The notes below the pieces were generated by a model. The model did no database searches, was not told the DNA's origin, and worked only from the letters and a program-made list of their open reading frames with translations. A program made the translations under genes and the position numbers. Positions 12,365 through 39,730 of a stretch of DNA of 39,730 bases are shown here, in pieces. The stretch is from an uncultured Eubacteriales bacterium (GTDB lineage Bacteria > Bacillota > Clostridia > Christensenellales > Aristaeellaceae). The DNA lies in the NCBI GenBank assembly GCA_902773895.1, contig CACYGB010000014.1, positions 1-39,730 on the forward strand, in the 5' to 3' direction. Each line of letters opens with the position of its first letter. The first letter of the stretch is position 1.

Positions 12365-13231
12365 TTATCCTTTCAGGCCGCTGGTGGCGATGCCTTCGAT
12401 GAAGTACCGCTGCAGGCAGAAGAATACGATGGAAACCGGAACCAGGGAGCAGAGGGAGGCGGCCATGATCAGGTGGTAGTCGGCGGAGTACTGCTGGATG
12501 AAGCGGCGCAGGCCGACCTGGATGGTCTTGTTTTCATCCCGGGTCAGGTAGATCATGGGTCCCATGAAGTCGTTCCAGGTATTGACGAAGGTGAAGATGA
12601 CCAGGGTGGCGATGGCGGCCTTGGACAGGGGCAGCATGATCCGCAGCCAGATGCCGTACTCGCTCAGCCCGTCCAGCCGGGCGGCTTCGCACAGGTCGGT
12701 GGGGATTCCGCGGTAGAACTGACGCATCAGGAAGACGCCGAAGGCGGAGAAGGCTTGCAGGACCACCATGGCCCACAGGGTGTCATACAGCCCGACGGAA
12801 CGCATCATGATGAACTGGGGCAGCATGTAGGCCTGCCACGGGATCGCGATGGTGCCGATATAGGCCAGAAAAAGGGCATCCCGCCCGCGGAACTCCAGCT
12901 TCGCGAAGGCGTAGGCGGCAAAGGAGGAGGTCAGGGTCTGCAGGAAGGTGACAACGAGGGCGATGAAGGCGGTGTTTTTGAAATACGTCAGCAGGGAAAC
13001 CTTCTGCCAGATCAGGGAATAGTTTTCCCAGTGCCAGGTTTCCGGCAGCCAGGTCATGGGATAGGAGAAGACTTCCCGCTCCAGCTTGAAGGAGGAGAAG
13101 AGCATCCAGGCAAAGGGAATCAGCGTGAAGAACGCCATGGCCAGCAGCAGGAAATAGACAACGGCCTTCAGGATCCGGTGGGCCACCGGGTTGTCCCGGC
13201 GGATCGATTTTGTGTGGAGAGCCTGATCCAT
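12365..13231 (-). CDS. Sugar ABC transporter permease, MalG/AraQ type
   Basis: 288 residues with six predicted membrane helices, the usual size for MalG-type (CUT1) permeases. The EAA loop that docks the ATPase is clear: EAARLDGLSEYG, then RIMLPLSKAA. With the 13250-14206 permease it forms the membrane channel for an oligosaccharide bound by the 14356-15606 protein. GGAGG precedes the ATG, and the partner gene ends 18 bases upstream. No ATPase gene is near, so a shared MsmX-like ATPase encoded elsewhere is expected. Confidence 0.93.
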   Translation of the reverse strand: MDQALHTKSIRRDNPVAHRILKAVVYFLLLAMAFFTLIPFAWMLFSSFKLEREVFSYPMTWLPETWHWENYSLIWQKVSLLTYFKNTAFIALVVTFLQTLTSSFAAYAFAKLEFRGRDALFLAYIGTIAIPWQAYMLPQFIMMRSVGLYDTLWAMVVLQAFSAFGVFLMRQFYRGIPTDLCEAARLDGLSEYGIWLRIMLPLSKAAIATLVIFTFVNTWNDFMGPMIYLTRDENKTIQVGLRRFIQQYSADYHLIMAASLCSLVPVSIVFFCLQRYFIEGIATSGLKG

Positions 13232-13249
13232 AAACGCTTTCCTCCTTTC

Positions 13250-14206
13250 TCAGTCGGCAGAGAATTTTTTCTCGGACCGGAACTGGATAATAGTGACGGC
13301 AAGAACGATGATCAGCAGGATCATGGCGATGGCGCTTGCCTGCCCGTAACGGATCTTCGCGAAGGCTTCGTCATAGATATACGTAACCAGCATCTTGGTG
13401 GCGCGGCCGGGGCCTCCGTCGGTCATAATGGCCACCACGTCGTAAATTTTGAAGCAGGAGATGACCATCATGACGGAAACGAAGAAGGTGGTGGGCCGCA
13501 GCTGGGGAAGGGTCACGTGGATGAACTGCTTCCACCTTCCGGCGCCGTCCACCGTGGCAGCTTCCAGCAGCTCACGCGGCACGCCCTGGAGGGCCGCCAG
13601 GTAGATGACCATGTAGTAGCCCATGTTCCGCCAGACGCTGACGAGAATGATGGACCAGATCGCCATGGTGCTGTCGGCGGTCCAGGATTTGTTGTAATTG
13701 ACGCCCAGGGCCATGAGCATCTGGTTGATCGGGCCGTTTTTCATCAGCATGAAGGACCAGCAGACGCATATGGCCACCATGGAGGCGACGTAAGGGAAGA
13801 AAAAGACGGCCCGGAGAACCACGGCGCCGCGGACTTTGTTCAGCAGGATCGCCAGGGCCAGGGCGCAGGCGATAGTCAGCGGAACGGTTACCGCGGTGTA
13901 AAACACCGTGTTCTTCAGGGCGATGCCCAGGTCCACCCGGTTGAAGAAATATCCGATTCCCTTTTCCGCCACCTTGGAGACGTTGAAAATATTGGCGTAG
14001 TTATCGAATCCGACGAACCGGATCCGGGAGATATCCCCGCCGTTCCATTCAAAGAAGGAGAGGGCGACGGCAAGAAGGACGGGCACCAGAGTAAAGATGG
14101 CGAATCCCAGGAAGTTGGGCGCCAGGAAGGAATAGGCGACCAGCGTCTTTCTGCGCCGGCTCCTGCGCGTGACGGCACTTTCCCCTGTCCGTGCTGCGGT
14201 GGTCAT
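13250..14206 (-). CDS. Sugar ABC transporter permease, MalF/UgpA type
   Basis: 318 residues, six predicted membrane helices after a basic N-terminus (RRSRRRKT). The EAA loop reads LEAATVDGAGRWKQFIHVTLP. The segment AYSFLAPNFLGFAIFTLVP is typical of the first helix of CUT1 permeases. It partners the next gene. GAAAGGG lies before the ATG. Two hairpins separate it from the binding-protein gene, which should lower its expression relative to that gene. Confidence 0.93.
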   Translation of the reverse strand: MTTAARTGESAVTRRSRRRKTLVAYSFLAPNFLGFAIFTLVPVLLAVALSFFEWNGGDISRIRFVGFDNYANIFNVSKVAEKGIGYFFNRVDLGIALKNTVFYTAVTVPLTIACALALAILLNKVRGAVVLRAVFFFPYVASMVAICVCWSFMLMKNGPINQMLMALGVNYNKSWTADSTMAIWSIILVSVWRNMGYYMVIYLAALQGVPRELLEAATVDGAGRWKQFIHVTLPQLRPTTFFVSVMMVISCFKIYDVVAIMTDGGPGRATKMLVTYIYDEAFAKIRYGQASAIAMILLIIVLAVTIIQFRSEKKFSAD

Positions 14207-32427: not shown

Positions 32428-32458
32428 AAAAAACGCCCCTCTTAGAAGAAGGACGTTT
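32428..32458 (-). terminator. Terminator of the O-acyltransferase/MurNAc operon
   Basis: On the minus strand AAACGTCC pairs with GGGCGTTT (one G-U pair) around a 12-base loop, followed by TTTTTT. It lies about 30 bases after the kinase stop and ends the six-gene operon. Confidence 0.7.
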
Positions 32459-32490
32459 CATTCCATGGATCATGCTGTGCCTTGCGGGCT

Positions 32491-33390
32491 TCAATCCGCC
32501 TGCCGCATCGCCAGCCTGGCGGCCCCCAGGGACGCGCTGCCCAGCGGATCGTGAACCGCGATGCCGGGAAAACGGGCCTGCACGCTCCGGATCACACCCT
32601 GCCGGATCAGGTCATAATGCTGTAAAATGCTGCCCATCAGAGCCAGCTCTCCGCCGTTCATGCCTGTTTTTTGCCAGGCGGTGATCACCAGCTCGGCCAG
32701 ATCCTCCGCCGCCTTTCGGGCGATGGACAGGGCGACGCCGTCCTGCTTTTCCAGGCCCTGCAGCAGCAGAGGCGCCAGGGAAGCGATTTCCTTCTTCCCG
32801 GTTTTCGGCGCGTACAGCCAGGTCACGATGTCCCGGGCATCCCGGGCCTGCAATTGCGCCAGTACCAGCGGCGTCAGGCAGCTTTCGGGCAGCCGTCCGT
32901 CCAGGCAGCGCACCGCCGCGGCCAGCAGATCCCGTCCGATGGCATAGCCGCTGCCGCCGTCGTCGATCAGGTAACCGTAGCCGCCCACGCGGAAGGAATT
33001 CCCCTGCGCGTCACGGCCAAAGCAAACGGCCCCGGTGCCGGCGATCAGCACGGCCCCCGGCCCATTCACCGCGCCGGCCAGCGCGATTTCCTGGTCGCCC
33101 AGCAATCGGAGCTTGCCGGTATAACCGCCGCGCCGCACGGCATCCTCCACCAGCCCGGCGGCGTCCGCGTTGCTGACGCCGGCAATGCCGATCACCAGCC
33201 CGGCGCAGTGAGAAAGGCCGTACTCCGCCATCAGGGCCAGGCAGTCCTGCACCGTGGCTTCCACCGTTTCCCGGGCGGTCCCGTTGGGGTTCAGGGGGCC
33301 GAAGGAGCGCGTTTCCAGCACCTGTCCATTTGCATCCAGCAGGCACACTTCCGTTTTGGTGCCGCCGCCGTCCCAGCCGCAATAATACAT
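32491..33390 (-). CDS. BadF/BadG-type N-acetylglucosamine / N-acetylmuramate kinase
   Basis: 299 residues of the ASKHA kinase fold, BadF/BadG/BcrA/BcrD group, the family of GlcNAc kinases and clostridial MurK. The phosphate-1 loop is DGGGTKTEVCLLD at residues 6-18, the second glycine-rich loop is VLIAGTGAVCFGRD, and YLIDDGGSGYAIG is the family signature. Standing three bases after murQ, it probably phosphorylates MurNAc and GlcNAc to their 6-phosphates, supplying MurQ (as MurK in Clostridium acetobutylicum). GGGAGG precedes the ATG. A PTS-borne supply of MurNAc-6-phosphate is not seen here. Confidence 0.88.
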   Translation of the reverse strand: MYYCGWDGGGTKTEVCLLDANGQVLETRSFGPLNPNGTARETVEATVQDCLALMAEYGLSHCAGLVIGIAGVSNADAAGLVEDAVRRGGYTGKLRLLGDQEIALAGAVNGPGAVLIAGTGAVCFGRDAQGNSFRVGGYGYLIDDGGSGYAIGRDLLAAAVRCLDGRLPESCLTPLVLAQLQARDARDIVTWLYAPKTGKKEIASLAPLLLQGLEKQDGVALSIARKAAEDLAELVITAWQKTGMNGGELALMGSILQHYDLIRQGVIRSVQARFPGIAVHDPLGSASLGAARLAMRQAD

Positions 33391-33393
33391 GGT

Positions 33394-34308
33394 TTACGCC
33401 TCCCGATGGGCAATAGCCTGGGCAATGCGCCCGTCCGCGGCGGCCAGCGCCTGCCTGGCCTGTTCGGCGTCCAGCCCCAGCAGCAGCATCACGATGGCCG
33501 TTTTGCAGGAAAAACCGCACTGCTCCAGCGTGGCCTTCGCCGTGGCCTCGTCCACCTCCGCCGCCGTGCACACGATGGAAATGGCCCGGTGCACCAGTTT
33601 TTCATTGGTGGCCATCACGTCCACCATCAGATTGCCGTACACCTTGCCCATTTTGATCATCACGCAGGTGGACAGCATGTTCAGCACCAGCTTCTGGCAG
33701 GTGCCGCTTTTCATGCGGGAGGAGCCGGTCACCACCTCGGGCCCCGGCACCGGCGCCATGGTGATGTCGGCATGGCGGCTCATTTCGCTGTTGTGGCAGC
33801 AGGTGATGGCCATCACCGGCGCGCCCAGGGAACGGGCGTAATCCATGGCCCCCAGCACGTAGGGCGTGCGGCCGCTGGCGGCGATGCCCACCAAGGCGTC
33901 GGCCGCGGAAAACTGATGCTCCGTCAGGTCTTTTTTGCCCAAATCGTAATTATCCTCCGCCCCTTCGACGGCCTTCAAAAACGCGGAAGGGCCGCCGGCG
34001 ATCAGCGCCACCACCAGCCCGGGATCCACGCCGTAGGTGGGGGGACATTCCGCCGCATCCAGCACGCCCAGCCGGCCGCTGGTGCCGGCGCCCACGTAAA
34101 ACAGCCGGCCGCCGGCATGCACCTTTTCATAAATGGCGTCCACGCTGCGGGCAATTTCGGGCAGCACGTCCTTCACCGCCTCGGCGCAGCGATGATCCTC
34201 TTCATTGATCAGCGACACCATGTCCAAAGTGGACAGGGTATCAATGTGCATGGTTTTGGGATTGCGTTTTTCGGTATCAATCTTTTTCAGCTCCACCATC
34301 GTGTTCAT
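33394..34308 (-). CDS. murQ: N-acetylmuramic acid 6-phosphate etherase
   Basis: 304 residues with a SIS domain. MurQ cleaves the lactyl ether of MurNAc-6-phosphate, giving GlcNAc-6-phosphate and lactate in cell-wall recycling. GAGTSGR (73-79) is the sugar-phosphate loop. E87 in DAAECPPTY and E118 in VEGAEDN correspond to the catalytic glutamates of E. coli MurQ (E83, E114). SRMKSGTCQKL and the C-terminal GLDAEQARQAL complete the family pattern. Two starts are possible: ATG 34308, crowded by GGAGGGGG, and ATG 34299, at better spacing. It sits between a DUF4358 lipoprotein gene and the kinase gene. Confidence 0.95.
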   Translation of the reverse strand: MNTMVELKKIDTEKRNPKTMHIDTLSTLDMVSLINEEDHRCAEAVKDVLPEIARSVDAIYEKVHAGGRLFYVGAGTSGRLGVLDAAECPPTYGVDPGLVVALIAGGPSAFLKAVEGAEDNYDLGKKDLTEHQFSAADALVGIAASGRTPYVLGAMDYARSLGAPVMAITCCHNSEMSRHADITMAPVPGPEVVTGSSRMKSGTCQKLVLNMLSTCVMIKMGKVYGNLMVDVMATNEKLVHRAISIVCTAAEVDEATAKATLEQCGFSCKTAIVMLLLGLDAEQARQALAAADGRIAQAIAHREA

Positions 34309-34318
34309 CCCCCTCCGT

Positions 34319-34795
34319 TCAATTTCCCCAGGCTTTCTGCACAGCCTGCCGGGCGGCCGGCTGATCCGGCGCCACCACCAACACCACCTGGGTGGCCCTG
34401 CGCTGCACCGCCGCCGCTTCCAGCTTGGGCATTTCCTCGGGCCGGTAATCCTCGTACTGCTCCTTCAGGGAGGCCAGGTAGTCCTTCATCCTTTGCTCCG
34501 CCTGATCCGCCTTTGCGCTGTCCGGCGCCGTCAGCACCGCGATCACCTCGGACGTGGTGCGGGAGGCGTCCATGATCATCACCAGTTCCTTATAATCCTC
34601 TTCCTCCACGTCCAGCAGGGTGCTGGCGCGCGTTTCGCTGACCTGGAACATTTCTTCGGAATAGGTCTGGCTTTTCAGCACCTGGTCCGCCAGTTCCTGG
34701 GCAGCGGGCAGTTTCGCCGCCGGTTTCGCGCCGCAGCCGCACAGCAGCGCCGCCAGCAAGCAGCCCAGCAGCCCCAGCATGATCTTTTTCTTCAT
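34319..34795 (-). CDS. DUF4358 lipoprotein
   Basis: 158 residues. A lipoprotein signal peptide ends in LLCGC, with lipidation expected on the last cysteine (C21). The mature part matches DUF4358: AQELADQVLKSQTYSEEMFQ, then DYKELVMIMDASRTTSEVIAVL, then AEQRMKDYLASLKEQYEDYRPEE. It should sit on the outer face of the membrane. DUF4358 lipoproteins often follow MBOAT and SGNH genes in Firmicutes, so it is probably an accessory of the acyl-transfer complex (inference). One base separates it from the SGNH gene. Confidence 0.85.
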   Translation of the reverse strand: MKKKIMLGLLGCLLAALLCGCGAKPAAKLPAAQELADQVLKSQTYSEEMFQVSETRASTLLDVEEEDYKELVMIMDASRTTSEVIAVLTAPDSAKADQAEQRMKDYLASLKEQYEDYRPEEMPKLEAAAVQRRATQVVLVVAPDQPAARQAVQKAWGN

Positions 34796-34796
34796 T

Positions 34797-35525
34797 TTAC
34801 TTCTTCTCCTCTCCCACCTGCATGCGGATCGCGTCCGCCACCGCCTGGGCGCCCTTCTGGGTCAGGTGGATGCCGTCGCCGGTGTTGAAGCCGATCTGGA
34901 TCCGTTTTCCGTCCTCGGACAGAAGCGGCGTGAATATATCCACGTAATGCAGGCCGTGGGTCTTGGCGATTTCCATCATTTCTTCATTAAAAGACTGGAT
35001 GTTGGCCATGGACAGCTTGGGATAGCGTTTGGTGGCCACCGGCGCCACCGGCGTCACCGCCAGCAGATAAATTTCGCAGCCCGGCAGGTTTTCGATCAGG
35101 TAATCCACCAGTTCGTGGTATTCCTGCTTCACGCTGCTCAGCTTTTCGTGGTCGATCCCGTTGGAGCCCAGCATCAGCAGCAGCTTCTGCGGCTTTCGCA
35201 GCACCATGCGCTCCGCCATGGTCAGGTATTTCCCATCCACCACGTAGTGATGGTTCCGCAGCGCGCCCCGGGGGGACTGACCGGTTTTGTGAAACACCTT
35301 CAGGTTGGGGATCACCTCGTAATTGGCCAGGGATTCGGACACCGAATCCCCCATGATCCATGTTTTTTTGAACCAGCTGTCCGGCGCGGGCTTTTTGCGC
35401 TGGATCTGCACGGTGAACGTTTCGTCCGTTTCCTTTTGCAGCTTGCATTTTTCCAGGGCCAGCCCGTCGCCGCACAGCAGCGCCAGCAGCAAAGCCAGGC
35501 AAACGATCCGCTTGATTGTGTTCAT
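34797..35525 (-). CDS. Exported SGNH/GDSL-type hydrolase or acyltransferase
   Basis: 242 residues. The N-terminus is a signal or anchor helix (about 5-24). All SGNH blocks are visible: block I GDS with S61 (IMGDSVSES), block III GSNGID with N122, block V D217-x2-H220 (GDGIHLTQKG). The glycine of block II may be in GQSPRG. It could transfer an acyl group to a polymer, like PatB or AlgX, or remove it as an esterase. It is encoded between the DHHW-type protein (13 bases) and the DUF4358 lipoprotein (1 base). GGAGG lies five bases before the ATG. Confidence 0.85.
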   Translation of the reverse strand: MNTIKRIVCLALLLALLCGDGLALEKCKLQKETDETFTVQIQRKKPAPDSWFKKTWIMGDSVSESLANYEVIPNLKVFHKTGQSPRGALRNHHYVVDGKYLTMAERMVLRKPQKLLLMLGSNGIDHEKLSSVKQEYHELVDYLIENLPGCEIYLLAVTPVAPVATKRYPKLSMANIQSFNEEMMEIAKTHGLHYVDIFTPLLSEDGKRIQIGFNTGDGIHLTQKGAQAVADAIRMQVGEEKK

Positions 35526-35538
35526 CCTATCCTCCTGT

Positions 35539-36606
35539 TCAGGGCATCAGCATGGCCAGCGCCCGGGTTTGGGAAAACGTGTTCAGCCCGTAATACACCA
35601 GCACCCGCTGTGTGCCCGCGTCCCGGAGCAGCGTGGGAAGCTCCTGCGCAAAATACCGGGGATCCACCAGGTCGATGCGGCCGAAATGCCGGGCCAGCAT
35701 GGGTGCCAGGCAGTTGGCATAACTGTCGCCGATAATCAGCAGCGACCCTTCCGCCGCGGTGTTTTCCAGCACCGCGTGGCCGTACACGCTGTCGATCAGG
35801 GCGGCGTATTTGTTCCTGCCCTGCAGTCTGTCCCGGTTCAGCAATCCGTCCCGCTTTTCCCCGTCCACCGTCAGCGTTACGCCGGAAGGCAGATCCGCCG
35901 TCAGAACGTCGGGCTGCGTCTGCAGCAGCGGCGCTTTGCTCCAGTAGGAGCCCAGGAAGCCTTCGGCCGAATACGGCTCCGCCGCCCGGGGCATCAGGCC
36001 CCACGCCCGGCACAGGCTTTCATAGCACACCCGGGTGCCTGCCGCCGTCAAATGATGGTCGGTCCGGTAATAATACGAATCAACGGGGTCTTTTAATCCC
36101 GTTTCGATCCACTCCGCGCGCAGTTCGGCGCGCAGTTCCGCCAGGGCTTTGCCGGTGTCCCCCGCCTGATACAGCGCCGGCAGATGATCCGTTCCGTGGG
36201 ACGAAGGCGGCACCAGCATCACCGAAAACGGCAGATCGGGATACGCGTCCTGCAGCGCGTTCAGCACCCGCACGCCGGACCGGGCCGCGCTGCCCGCTTC
36301 CCGCACGGGCTCCTCCATCAGCCAGCCGCCGCTGCCGATCAGCACGCCGTTTTGCAGCCGCCGGCCCAGCGCTGCCGCCAGGGAGGATTGGCCCTGCACC
36401 AGCGCGTCGTGAAAGGGAAAATGATCCGCCAGGTAGTTTTCCAGCTGCCGGTCCAGTTGTCCCGCGCGCAGGTCCACCGTAGCCAGCACACGGTTTTCCA
36501 TTTCGGAAAAATCCGCCTTGGGCAAAATCAGCGCCAGCAGCAGGCCCGCCAGCATCAGCAGCAGCACCGTCCGCGTCAGCGGCGCTTTCAGCAATAAGTC
36601 TTTCAT
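35539..36606 (-). CDS. AlgJ/AlgX-like (DHHW-type) SGNH protein
   Basis: 355 residues. One N-terminal membrane helix (about 11-29) is followed by SEMENRVLA, typical of AlgJ/AlgX-like and DHHW proteins. D183 and H185 (YYYRTDHHLTAAG) precede the nucleophile S295 in IIGDSYANCL. This inverted order, D-x-H before the serine, is that of AlgJ (D190, H192, S288) and AlgX. Such proteins accept acetyl from an MBOAT partner and pass it to an exported polysaccharide. It follows the MBOAT gene by 13 bases, so the pairing is strong. The acceptor here is not known. Confidence 0.88.
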   Translation of the reverse strand: MKDLLLKAPLTRTVLLLMLAGLLLALILPKADFSEMENRVLATVDLRAGQLDRQLENYLADHFPFHDALVQGQSSLAAALGRRLQNGVLIGSGGWLMEEPVREAGSAARSGVRVLNALQDAYPDLPFSVMLVPPSSHGTDHLPALYQAGDTGKALAELRAELRAEWIETGLKDPVDSYYYRTDHHLTAAGTRVCYESLCRAWGLMPRAAEPYSAEGFLGSYWSKAPLLQTQPDVLTADLPSGVTLTVDGEKRDGLLNRDRLQGRNKYAALIDSVYGHAVLENTAAEGSLLIIGDSYANCLAPMLARHFGRIDLVDPRYFAQELPTLLRDAGTQRVLVYYGLNTFSQTRALAMLMP

Positions 36607-36619
36607 CGCGCTCTCTCCA

Positions 36620-37960
36620 TTAAAAACGGAAATACAGGAACGGATTGTACTGCGCCCGGATCAGCGACAGCACGCTCAGGGCAAACAGCAGCACATACGC
36701 GGCGTTGCCGAGACGGGGGTATTTTTCCGTCGCTTCCTTTAACTTTTTCCCCACCGCCGGCACCGCCAGCAGCACCGCCAGCGCCAGGGGAAAAGCGTCG
36801 TTCAGCGTCAGGAACGCGGTGTTCAGCCCCACCGCCGGGGATACCAGCTGCCCGGCAAACGCAAAGATTTCCGCCGGTGTTTCATAGAGGAACAATCCCC
36901 AGGACAGGATGAACAGGATCAGCGTATACACGTGGGCGACGCCCCGGTGCTTTTCCAGCCAGCGGCCGTAAAAAAGCGTTTCCAGAATAATGAAGACGGC
37001 AAAGAACAGCCCCCAGGCCAGGAAGTTCCATCCGGCGCCGTGCCACAGGCCGGACACCGTCCAGGTGATCAGCAGGCTGAGCACCATCCGCGCCTTGCCG
37101 TGCCGGGAGCCGCCCAGCGGAATATAAATATAGGAACGAAGCCAGGTGCCCAGCGTCATGTGCCATCTGCGCCACAGATCCTGAATGGAGGTGGCGGCAA
37201 AAGGCTGGTTGAAATTCTGCGGGAAAGAAAAGCCCAGCATACGGCCCATGCCGATGGCCATCAGGGAATAGCCGAAAAAATCATAGTAGTATTGGAAAGC
37301 ACAGCTGACCAGCACCAGCCAGGAGGCAGCGCCGCCCCGATTGGGAATGGCCTGCAGAGCGGCGCACAGCGCGCCCAGGCGGTTGGCCAGAAGCACCTTG
37401 GCCGCCAGGCCGGCTAGGAAGGTTTTCATGCCCTTTTCCAAACCGGCAGGGGTGATCTGCCGGCTGTGCAGCGCTTCGCTGACGTCGCTGTAGCGCACGA
37501 TGGGCCCGGCGATCAGCTGGGGAAACAAAAGGATGTAGGCCGCGTAGTCCCGCAGGTTCCTTTCCGCCTGCACCGTGCCGCGGTACACGTCCACCAGGCA
37601 GGAAATGGACTGGAAGATGAAAAAGCTGATGCCCAGCGGCAGCGCCGGATAGGCAGGAAGGCCGGGAACGAGGAGCTTCAGGTATTTGAACACGACCAGC
37701 ACCAGCACGTTGACACCCACGCTGACGCCCATCACCGCGCGGCGCTTCTTTCCCGTCAGCGCGTCCATCCACCGGCACGCGCCGTAATCAAAGGCCGTCA
37801 GCGCCAGCAGCAGCGGCAGGTTTTTCCAATCGCCGATGGCATAAAAAACCAGGCTGGCCAGCAGCAAAAACCCGTTGCGCAGCCGCGGCGGCAGCGCCGT
37901 GTGCGCGATCAGCACCAGCGGCAGAAAAAAGAACAGGAAAAGCAGGCTCGAAAAAACCAT
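36620..37960 (-). CDS. Membrane-bound O-acyltransferase (AlgI/PatA-like MBOAT)
   Basis: 446 residues with about ten membrane helices. The MBOAT core is clear: SIQDLWRRWHMTLGTWLRSYIY (H267), IPLGGSR, and SGLWHGAGWNFLAWG with the catalytic H307. AlgI/PatA-type proteins move acetyl groups from cytoplasmic acetyl-CoA across the membrane to a surface acyltransferase. It is the first gene of a six-gene minus-strand operon whose later genes encode two SGNH proteins, a lipoprotein, MurQ and a sugar kinase. GAGG lies seven bases before the ATG. A TACAAT -10 with weak -35 lies near 38010-38035; the promoter is uncertain. Confidence 0.93.
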   Translation of the reverse strand: MVFSSLLFLFFFLPLVLIAHTALPPRLRNGFLLLASLVFYAIGDWKNLPLLLALTAFDYGACRWMDALTGKKRRAVMGVSVGVNVLVLVVFKYLKLLVPGLPAYPALPLGISFFIFQSISCLVDVYRGTVQAERNLRDYAAYILLFPQLIAGPIVRYSDVSEALHSRQITPAGLEKGMKTFLAGLAAKVLLANRLGALCAALQAIPNRGGAASWLVLVSCAFQYYYDFFGYSLMAIGMGRMLGFSFPQNFNQPFAATSIQDLWRRWHMTLGTWLRSYIYIPLGGSRHGKARMVLSLLITWTVSGLWHGAGWNFLAWGLFFAVFIILETLFYGRWLEKHRGVAHVYTLILFILSWGLFLYETPAEIFAFAGQLVSPAVGLNTAFLTLNDAFPLALAVLLAVPAVGKKLKEATEKYPRLGNAAYVLLFALSVLSLIRAQYNPFLYFRF

Positions 37961-38060
37961 CGTTCATCCTCACAGGCCCAAAGATGGGGCAAAATGACCA
38001 CTTGCCCAAATTGTATTTGTTCGACAGAAAAGAAAAAAATCCTGCCTTCCCCGGTTTGTC

Positions 38061-38089
38061 TTGCCATCAGGAGGGATTTGTTGTATAAT
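38061..38089 (+). promoter_or_regulatory. Promoter of the AmiE-like hydrolase gene
   Basis: TTGCCA (38061-38066), a 17-base spacer and a perfect TATAAT (38084-38089) in the 157-base gap divergent from the MBOAT operon. Nothing else was identified in 37961-38060 apart from a weak minus-strand -10 (TACAAT). Confidence 0.7.
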
Positions 38090-38117
38090 GGTCCCAGACA
38101 AAGGAGGCAGAAATGCC

Positions 38118-39167
38118 ATGCAATCATATCAGGACGTGTTGCAAACCCGCCTGGACCAGGGGCGGAAGGACGGCTGTTATCCCTGTGCCGCTGCGGCGGT
38201 TGGCGTAAAAAAGACTGTGCTGGCCCGGGCTTTCACCGGGGAAGCGCCGCTTCCGGGCGGAGAGCCGGTGGATGCGCATACCCGGTTCGACATGGCTTCC
38301 CTGTCCAAGGTGCTGGGCACAAGCATGGTGGCGCTGAAAGCCATCGAACGGGGCGACATCCATTTGACCGACACCGTGGGCGATTATTTCCCCCAAGCGC
38401 CCGAAGATAAAAAGGGCATCACCCTCTTCATGCTCATGACCCACACCGGCGGGTTCAACCCCTCTTTCCGGCTGGATCGCCTGCTTACCGATCCCCGGGA
38501 GGCCGTGGACTGCATTTTGCGTTACCCCCTGGACGAAAAGCCCGGCGTCCGGCCCATTTATTCCTGCATGGGCTATATCCTGCTGGGCAAGATCCTGGAG
38601 AAAAAATTCGGCAGCCCGCTGAAGGAGCTGGCACGGGAGCAGGTATTCCTGCCCCTGGGCATGACGGAAACGGGCTACTGCCCCGCCCCCGGCGCCCCCT
38701 GTGCCGCCACGGAGGTGGACCCTGTCACCGGCAAGCCGTGGATCGGCGTGGTGCACGATGAAAACGCCCGCTTCCTGCAGGGCAATTCCGGCAACGCCGG
38801 GGTGTTCATGCCCCTGTGCGACGGCATCCGCTTCGCCGCCATGCTTGCCTGCGGGGGCGACGGCTTCCTGAAGGAAGAAACACTGGCCGCCGCCCGGCGG
38901 AACTATACCCCCGGCCAGGACGCCCACCGGGGCCTGGGATTTCAGATTGCCGGCACACCGGACTGCTTTTTCAGCGACCAGGTGCCCGAAAACTGCTTCG
39001 GGCATACCGGCTTTACCGGCACCAGCCTGCTGGTGGAGCCCGAAAGCGGCTTCTGGGTGCTGCTGCTGACCAACCGGGTCTACCCCACCCGGGACAGCGC
39101 CGGCCTGTTCCCCTTCCGCCGTCAGCTGCACGGAGATATGTGGCATCTGTTCCGGAACAGTTTTTGA
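38118..39167 (+). CDS. Beta-lactamase-fold serine hydrolase, AmiE/EstB-like
   Basis: About 349 residues, serine-hydrolase (beta-lactamase, COG1680-like) fold. The nucleophile motif is S61-x-x-K64 (MASLSKVLG), the second motif is Y148-S-C150 (YSCMGYILLGKIL, where most members have YSN or YSD), and the third is H296-T-G298 (FGHTGFTGTS). GVVHDENARFLQGNSGNAGVF is close to the pattern seen in AmiE/EstB-type members. Bacillus subtilis AmiE (YbbE) is an N-acetylmuramoyl-L-alanine amidase in the MurNAc cluster, so the murQ operon next door supports that reading. Here there is no signal peptide. ATG 38118 lies ten bases after AAGGAGG; an esterase remains possible. Confidence 0.82.
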   Translation: MQSYQDVLQTRLDQGRKDGCYPCAAAAVGVKKTVLARAFTGEAPLPGGEPVDAHTRFDMASLSKVLGTSMVALKAIERGDIHLTDTVGDYFPQAPEDKKGITLFMLMTHTGGFNPSFRLDRLLTDPREAVDCILRYPLDEKPGVRPIYSCMGYILLGKILEKKFGSPLKELAREQVFLPLGMTETGYCPAPGAPCAATEVDPVTGKPWIGVVHDENARFLQGNSGNAGVFMPLCDGIRFAAMLACGGDGFLKEETLAAARRNYTPGQDAHRGLGFQIAGTPDCFFSDQVPENCFGHTGFTGTSLLVEPESGFWVLLLTNRVYPTRDSAGLFPFRRQLHGDMWHLFRNSF

Positions 39168-39291: not shown

Positions 39292-39730
39292 TTGAGCATT
39301 CGGAACAACGCGATGAATCCCGCCCGGAAAGGCAAAAAGAAAAGGCTTACGCTGGATGATATTCAGCTGTTCTTTTTGTCGTTCCCGACTGTCGTCTGGT
39401 ATCTTTTGTTCTGCTATCTGCCGATGTTCGGCATCCTGATCGCGTTCAAAAAGTACAAGGTTTCCCCCGGCAAGGGCTTTTTGTGGAGCCTGATCCACAA
39501 CAGCCCCTGGTGCGGCCTGGCGAACTTCAATTTTTTGTTTTCTTCAAACTCCAAAACCACCATCGCCATGTTCCGCAACACGGTATGCTATAACATCGTT
39601 TTTATCATCCTGGGCATCGTGATTCCGGTGGCGCTGGCCATCCTTATTTCCCACCTGTATTCCAAAAAGCTGGCGAAGATCTGCCAGACGGCGATTTTCC
39701 TGCCCCATTTCCTCAGCTGGGTGGTGGTCG
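39292..39730 (+). CDS. LplB-type sugar ABC transporter permease (cut by the window end)
   Basis: The first 146 codons of a CUT1 permease of the LplB/YtcP group for complex sugars. After a basic start (KGKKKRLTLDD) comes a helix (VVWYLLFCYLPMFGILIAFK), then the family-typical YKVSPGKGFLWS, the FNFLF region and two further helices (RNTVCYNIVFIILGIVIPVAL; TAIFLPHFLSWVVV). The start is TTG at 39292, eight bases after AAGGAGGG; the in-frame ATG at 39313 has no ribosome site. A second permease and a lipoprotein binding protein are expected to the right of the window. Confidence 0.88.
   Translation, partial: MSIRNNAMNPARKGKKKRLTLDDIQLFFLSFPTVVWYLLFCYLPMFGILIAFKKYKVSPGKGFLWSLIHNSPWCGLANFNFLFSSNSKTTIAMFRNTVCYNIVFIILGIVIPVALAILISHLYSKKLAKICQTAIFLPHFLSWVVV

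Follow-up and report, generated by a model that had tools for sequence, protein, structure and literature searches.

The 39,730-nucleotide stretch analysed here (the window) is the entire contig C14 (CACYGB010000014.1) of the 2.43-Mb, 84% complete assembly GCA_902773895.1 (genome G000) of an uncultured Eubacteriales bacterium of the family Aristaeellaceae, whose closest named relatives are Clostridia of the gut and rumen. Six genes lie on the minus strand near its right end. The first four encode an MBOAT acyltransferase, a DHHW-family protein, a second SGNH protein and a DUF4358 lipoprotein (hereafter, the cassette), and the last two encode MurQ, the etherase of N-acetylmuramic acid (MurNAc) 6-phosphate, and a MurK-like kinase of MurNAc and N-acetylglucosamine (GlcNAc) (Table 1). 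How the cassette came to stand directly before murQ, and what this position says about the polymer that it may acylate, is the subject of this work.

The six-gene unit

An earlier note, made from the letters of the window, had described six minus-strand genes with spacings of 13, 13, 1, 10 and 3 bases, assigned them to families and read them as a single operon. The six open reading frames (ORFs) were confirmed with these spacings, except that the murQ start at 34299 is favoured over that at 34308 by homology to relatives and by a ribosome-binding site, so that the gap between the DUF4358 gene and murQ becomes 19 bases. The family names were borne out by Pfam and NCBIfam matches above cut-off, those to PF03062, PF14286, PF13472, PF14270 and PF01869 all exceeding the Pfam threshold. 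The operon reading also holds as a prediction, given the tight gaps and a likely terminator hairpin after the kinase gene. Only 3 of 200 shuffled sequences folded as well as this hairpin, which went unlisted in a consensus terminator scan because its Us are paired within the stem. The asnA gene, which lies past the hairpin, has a promoter-like site of its own, and the unit therefore probably ends after the kinase gene, which makes a six-gene transcription unit plausible.

Table 1 Features at and around the six-gene unit (positions in the window)
Feature	Coordinates	Strand	Evidence
Hairpin, U-rich 3' side, likely operon terminator	32430..32459	-	13-pair stem; z -2.33
MurK-like BadF-type MurNAc/GlcNAc kinase	32491..33390	-	PF01869; 8zo3 E 2.6e-41
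MurQ, MurNAc-6-phosphate etherase	33394..34299 (ORF opens 34308)	-	TIGR00274 408.5 bits vs cut-off 302
DUF4358 lipoprotein, cassette gene 4	34319..34795	-	PF14270 61.6 bits; lipobox Cys21
Second SGNH protein (GDSL_2), cassette gene 3	34797..35525	-	Lipase_GDSL_2 PF13472 50.7 bits
DHHW-family (PatB1-like) SGNH-type acyltransferase, cassette gene 2	35539..36606	-	PF14286 42.6 bits vs 25
MBOAT acyltransferase, cassette gene 1	36620..37960	-	PF03062 108.3 bits vs cut-off 27
Intergenic region, cassette to hydrolase	37961..38117	.	Without TTGnnn-17-TAnnnT on the murQ strand
Beta-lactamase-fold (PF00144) hydrolase	38118..39167	+	PF00144 178.5 bits; divergent murQ neighbour in close relatives
ABC importer permease, start (salvage island)	39292..39730	+	Continues on contig G000:C3

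Proteins of the cassette

The MBOAT protein carries a catalytic-type histidine (His307) in a WHG motif, and its C-terminus, FLYFRF (F441-L-Y443-F-R-F446), fits the FxYxxF acyl-shuttle motif; both WHG and FxYxxF were present in all 32 MBOATs compared. The motif is defined in PMC12148441, where the tyrosine of PatA is auto-acetylated from acetyl-CoA and then feeds PatB. The closest solved structure is DltB; membership in the Dlt D-alanylation system was rejected, with a TIGR04091 score (164.3 vs 375 bits) far below cut-off.

The DHHW protein matches Bacillus cereus PatB1 (5v8d, E 8.6e-9), and its Ser295 and Asp183-His184-His185 are invariant in 11 of 11 sequences. The fourth residue of the motif is leucine (DHHL) in the window and in L165 and L167, and tryptophan in the other eight. 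In the second SGNH protein, Ser61, Gly120-x-Asn122 and His220 are invariant in 13 of 13 sequences, the aspartate of the triad being absent from the invariant list; the predicted fold (pLDDT 92.3) resembles O-acetylesterases, OatA and PatB, and the protein may add or remove acyl groups. Neither protein could be placed with the peptidoglycan PatB family (DUF459, PF04311), to which the DHHW protein gave no match at E 0.01 and the second SGNH protein scored 18.4 against 27.2 bits. OatA membership was likewise rejected, since no AT3 membrane domain was listed and the SGNH-AT3 model gave 22.5 against a cut-off of 27 on the DHHW protein.

Judging by these families and residues, the four-gene set is probably a system for acylating the cell surface. 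The MBOAT protein would take an acyl group, probably an acetyl, from acyl-CoA and bind it to its C-terminal tyrosine on the outside of the membrane. From there, the DHHW protein, the SGNH protein or both would hand it to an envelope polymer, and the DUF4358 protein would help as a lipoprotein subunit. A role in lipoprotein acetylation, linked in Bacillus to pcrB, yvoF and ypjA (PMC12345273), is a possible alternative.

The arrangement recalls the PatA/PatB, AlgI/AlgJ/AlgX, PatA1/PatB1 and DltB/DltX/DltD systems, in which an MBOAT protein with an invariant histidine and a C-terminal FxYxxF motif is followed by SGNH-type partner genes (PMC12148441), but it differs from them in two different SGNH-type proteins, a DUF4358 lipoprotein and the lack of an adjoining polymer synthase. 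With B. cereus PatB1, the DHHW protein shares PF14286, the 5v8d match and the conserved serine and Asp-His-His, though not the fourth motif residue. The MBOAT and DHHW pair is also found in the clostridial cellulose locus ccsZABHI (CcsH/CcsI; PMC7710045); the window operon, in contrast, has no cellulose synthase or endoglucanase and carries the extra SGNH and DUF4358 genes.

The MurNAc-salvage island

The closest solved relative of the kinase (8zo3) is an N-acetylmuramic acid/N-acetylglucosamine kinase, and the NagK_SO3507 model remained below cut-off on it (100.5 vs 370). A kinase gene lies within 2.5 kb of murQ in 16 of 18 distinct close murQ loci. One of the murQ loci, L166 of genome G149, shows the remainder of the island: two importer permeases, a DUF3502 protein (probably the importer binding protein), the exo-muramidase NamZ, a double GNAT protein, a PIG-L protein and a GH3 enzyme. 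In the window genome, the island genes also stand at the start of contig C3 (G000:C3:1-7600, L182), whose first 23 bases are the last 23 of the window, with the permease frame crossing the join; the window end of the permease matches residues 26-174 of the L166 permease, and C3 holds residues 168-357. Through this overlap within the permease frame, the salvage island of the window genome is complete, and the cassette lies within it. The best NCBIfam match of the hydrolase on the far side of the cassette was Escherichia coli PBP4B, below cut-off.

Like murQ-murR-murP-amiE-nagZ-ybbC of Bacillus subtilis and murQ-murP-yfeW of E. coli, the island places murQ beside peptidoglycan-fragment hydrolases (PMC5061867); unlike them, it has no MurP phosphotransferase system but an ABC importer and a MurK-type kinase in its place, and it carries the apparently inserted acyltransferase cassette. 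The products of murQ and murK would retain ordinary MurNAc salvage, in which MurNAc is converted to MurNAc-6-phosphate and then to GlcNAc-6-phosphate and lactate.

A second kind of murQ occurs in the genus (L156-L161, L164), with about 50% identity to that of the window and with other neighbours; no kinase gene was found within 2.5 kb of it at these loci. Elsewhere in the window, a second ABC permease-like gene pair (12365-14206) is about 24-25% identical to the island permeases.

The cassette in other genomes

Thirty-five MBOAT loci were fetched from the genus and the family by similarity to the window MBOAT. The order of the window, MBOAT-DHHW-SGNH-DUF4358, was found in 21 of them and SGNH-DUF4358-MBOAT-DHHW in six, with the SGNH and DUF4358 genes lacking in eight. 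The two orders are circular shifts of each other (L136, L137, L145, L173, L178 and L180 vs L126-L129 and L131-L135). In genome G024 (L130), MBOAT-DHHW is followed directly by an L7Ae-type gene, the SGNH and DUF4358 genes being missing, and in its near twin G008 (L131; MBOAT 97% identical), the L7Ae-type gene comes after SGNH and DUF4358. The window genome itself has two further MBOAT loci, on contigs C16 (L139) and C52 (L140), which carry DHHW genes and neither SGNH nor DUF4358 genes; their MBOATs are 44% identical to that of the window.

The neighbours were surveyed at 17 cassette loci, where part of the nearby genes was scanned (39 proteins, seven without a Pfam match). Most were unrelated to the wall or to each other, and included HisRS with TruB, a ProRS-like synthetase, RadC, Sir2, a Mg-chelatase-like protein, an alcohol dehydrogenase, a ParA-like protein, a cobalamin adenosyltransferase, a thiamine transporter and MatE transporters; murQ was absent from these annotated neighbourhoods. 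Wall-linked neighbours occurred at two of the 17: at L171, an L,D-transpeptidase domain upstream and an Asp23-family protein downstream, in a cluster common to L172, and at L131, a sugar-transfer ATP-grasp protein and a peptidoglycan-binding-domain protein beside the cassette. With neighbours as varied as these, the position of the cassette says little about its substrate.

An arrangement seen in one genome

The six-gene order, proposed earlier as an undescribed arrangement to be sought in other Clostridia, was found in the window genome only within the samples searched. Cassette genes were present within 6 kb at none of 46 other distinct murQ loci, which were kept from 53 (L035-L067, L146-L164, L166; some with short flanks) after sequence repeats, loci with fewer than 500 bases upstream and those with a MurQ match of 300 bits or less had been dropped. 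A genus search (29 genomes, E 0.001) revealed no other genome with a listed MBOAT on the murQ contig. Among 300 genomes of the family, many of them, as in the other samples, fragmented, MurQ was detected in 109 and MBOAT in 75 (cut-offs of E up to 1e-40 and 1e-90, respectively, which leave out weaker MBOATs); both occurred in 33, and on the same contig in the window genome only.

At the higher ranks, DUF4358 served as the marker, which misses MBOAT loci without it. The DUF4358 and MurQ markers coincided in four of the 347 genomes of the order sample and in 14 of the 291 of the class sample, in each case side by side only in the window genome; two other genomes of the class have both on one contig, about 55 kb and about 113 kb apart. 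At each rank, the paired marker samples were taken as the same genomes; their sizes and listed handles agree. In the literature searched, nothing was found that joins MBOAT with murQ, the wider searches having been judged by titles and the beginnings of abstracts. As far as gene order indicates, the cassette and the salvage genes are thus two separately conserved units, joined only here.

Probable insertion of the cassette and the usual promoter of murQ

We consider it probable that a four-gene envelope-acylation cassette moved between the divergent hydrolase gene and murQ-murK of the salvage island, displacing the murQ promoter. The cassette-free state can be seen in relatives, since the hydrolase gene and murQ are direct divergent neighbours at L035, L036, L037, L039, L044 and L047, five of which were recognised by script and L039 by a separate locus comparison; at L148, L149, L152, L153 and L154, an ABC permease gene adjoins murQ.

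The closest cassette, G149:C49, belongs to another genus and stands at another site. Its DNA is 69.9% identical to that of the window over an alignment of 3,696 columns, which covers 37960 to 34324 and ends five bases before the end of the DUF4358 gene. The query spanned 33394 (in murQ) to 38400 (in the hydrolase gene), and nothing in it outside the cassette block matched G149:C49. The murQ gene of G149 (L166) lies on a different contig, without a cassette.

The two units also differ in their relationships. In 13 pairs of other genomes of the genus (g1) that share one kind of MurQ, the MurQ proteins were 78-96% and the MBOATs 70-97% identical. The window compared with five of these genomes gave 78-80% for MurQ and only 44-45% for MBOAT, and the window compared with G149 gave 84% and 72%, respectively. 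In the MBOAT tree, the window genome grouped with G149 and then with G238 (support 100/100); ten further MBOATs of this type from the genus, nine of which sit in full cassettes, branched separately. The simplest account would be that the window lineage received or moved the block independently.

The promoter evidence points the same way. The pattern TTGnnn-17-TAnnnT stands directly before murQ in 11 of 13 relatives, against a background of 24 in 1,100 random stretches of equal length. On the murQ strand of the window, it was found neither before murQ nor before the MBOAT gene nor within the cassette. A promoter separating the DUF4358 gene from murQ was also sought, and two scans detected no promoter-like site on the minus strand from the start of the hydrolase gene to that of murQ, nor was a promoter of the cassette itself evident in the scans. 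With no such site found on its strand here, murQ most likely relies on transcription through the cassette; the insertion probably displaced the usual murQ promoter, and murQ and murK would now be co-transcribed with the cassette, riding on its transcript. A scan with other settings gave one promoter-like site within murQ, from which the kinase gene could be transcribed.

Several observations weigh against the insertion account. The evidence comes from a single contig in a single metagenome-type assembly of 84% completeness. No step in G+C content marks the block as foreign (0.55-0.68 across the region), the gene calls show no mobile-element gene in the gaps of the block, and a repeat search of 34100-38400 gave short matches (20 of 25 direct families listed) and one inverted pair that frames the block. 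This pair (18 bases, 83% complementary) lies inside murQ and the hydrolase gene, is one of 17 such pairs and is probably due to chance. The site itself varies, the hydrolase gene being directly upstream at six of the 18 close murQ loci and a permease gene or other genes at the others. Moreover, pairs across the two MurQ kinds of the genus are 49-53% identical in MurQ and 59-64% in MBOAT, so the history of murQ is also mixed, and differential loss instead of transfer is possible.

An assembly artefact joining two unrelated pieces, suggested by the single draft genome and the absence of the order elsewhere in the samples, is highly improbable, for the two joins coincide with plausible gene borders, where a ribosome-binding site and spacings typical of an operon are found, the composition has no step, and the island's hydrolase and permease genes still lie on the other side of the cassette.

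The locus is a clear natural case of closely packed operon genes that need not act in one pathway: their joining was found in a single genome, and the cassette-free state exists in relatives, which calls for caution in reading function from the operon neighbourhood of one genome.

Candidate acceptors of the acyl groups

The cassette has about an even chance of acylating a secondary cell-wall polysaccharide, a teichoic-type polymer or an exopolysaccharide, the adjacency to murQ then being meaningless; this refines, and does not contradict, the insertion account. PatB1, the characterised DHHW member, acts on a secondary cell-wall polysaccharide (PMC9487903), MBOAT/DHHW pairs have been proposed to acetylate clostridial cellulose (PMC7710045), and the varied neighbours of the cassette agree with such a role, although no glycosyltransferase or polymer synthase was present among those annotated.

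The earlier note had suggested peptidoglycan or another aminosugar polymer of the wall as the acylated polymer, with acylation matched to turnover. Peptidoglycan is possible as the acceptor, but this step from position to substrate was left unsupported by the occurrence of the order in one genome, the varied cassette neighbours and a DHHW protein that is not DUF459. A selected coupling, in which the acyl groups go to the cell's own peptidoglycan or to another aminosugar polymer and co-transcription lets protection follow wall turnover or the digestion of foreign walls, appears unlikely. It is favoured by the tight gaps and the lack of an internal murQ promoter, which suggest co-transcription, by the peptidoglycan-digesting NamZ and GH3 enzymes of the island, by the reported protection that O-acetylation of MurNAc gives against lysozyme-type enzymes (PMC12148441), and by the wall-linked genes at two of the 17 annotated cassette neighbourhoods. 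However, the arrangement is a single observation (none of 46 other murQ loci; one of 33 family genomes with both genes), the annotated neighbours are mostly non-wall genes, and the DHHW protein differs from the peptidoglycan PatB family. The link between acylation and recycling is one of gene position, in a single case.

A further version, in which a peptidoglycan-scavenging island captured a four-protein acylation machine with DUF4358 as its dedicated subunit, and a single transcript would serve both to armour the wall of the cell and to salvage MurNAc from walls under digestion, is very unlikely; if true, the armour would be directed against muramidases, namely the cell's own NamZ and, should the bacterium live in the gut like its relatives, host lysozyme.

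DUF4358 at MBOAT loci

The association of DUF4358 with MBOAT genes is the more lasting lead from this locus and the part worth following. Outside the family, an MBOAT gene was found within 300 bases at 16 of 20 DUF4358 loci (L183-L202; 19 genomes of other families of the order), a non-random set picked mainly by score from 51 hits. An SGNH gene was present within the same distance at 13 of the 20, and three of the four loci without MBOAT still have an SGNH gene nearby. The DUF4358 domain is named in the literature searched only in a proteomics table, and its association with MBOAT was not found there. By sequence, nothing was matched below E 0.4, and the predicted structure, despite a pLDDT of 92.6, had no solved-structure match below E 0.1. 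The lipobox cysteine (Cys21) is kept in at least 90% of 44 aligned DUF4358 sequences. From these data, we infer that DUF4358 may serve MBOAT-SGNH systems as a lipoprotein subunit; in the sampled Clostridia, it accompanies MBOAT/SGNH acyltransferases, and a role in envelope acylation thereby becomes testable.

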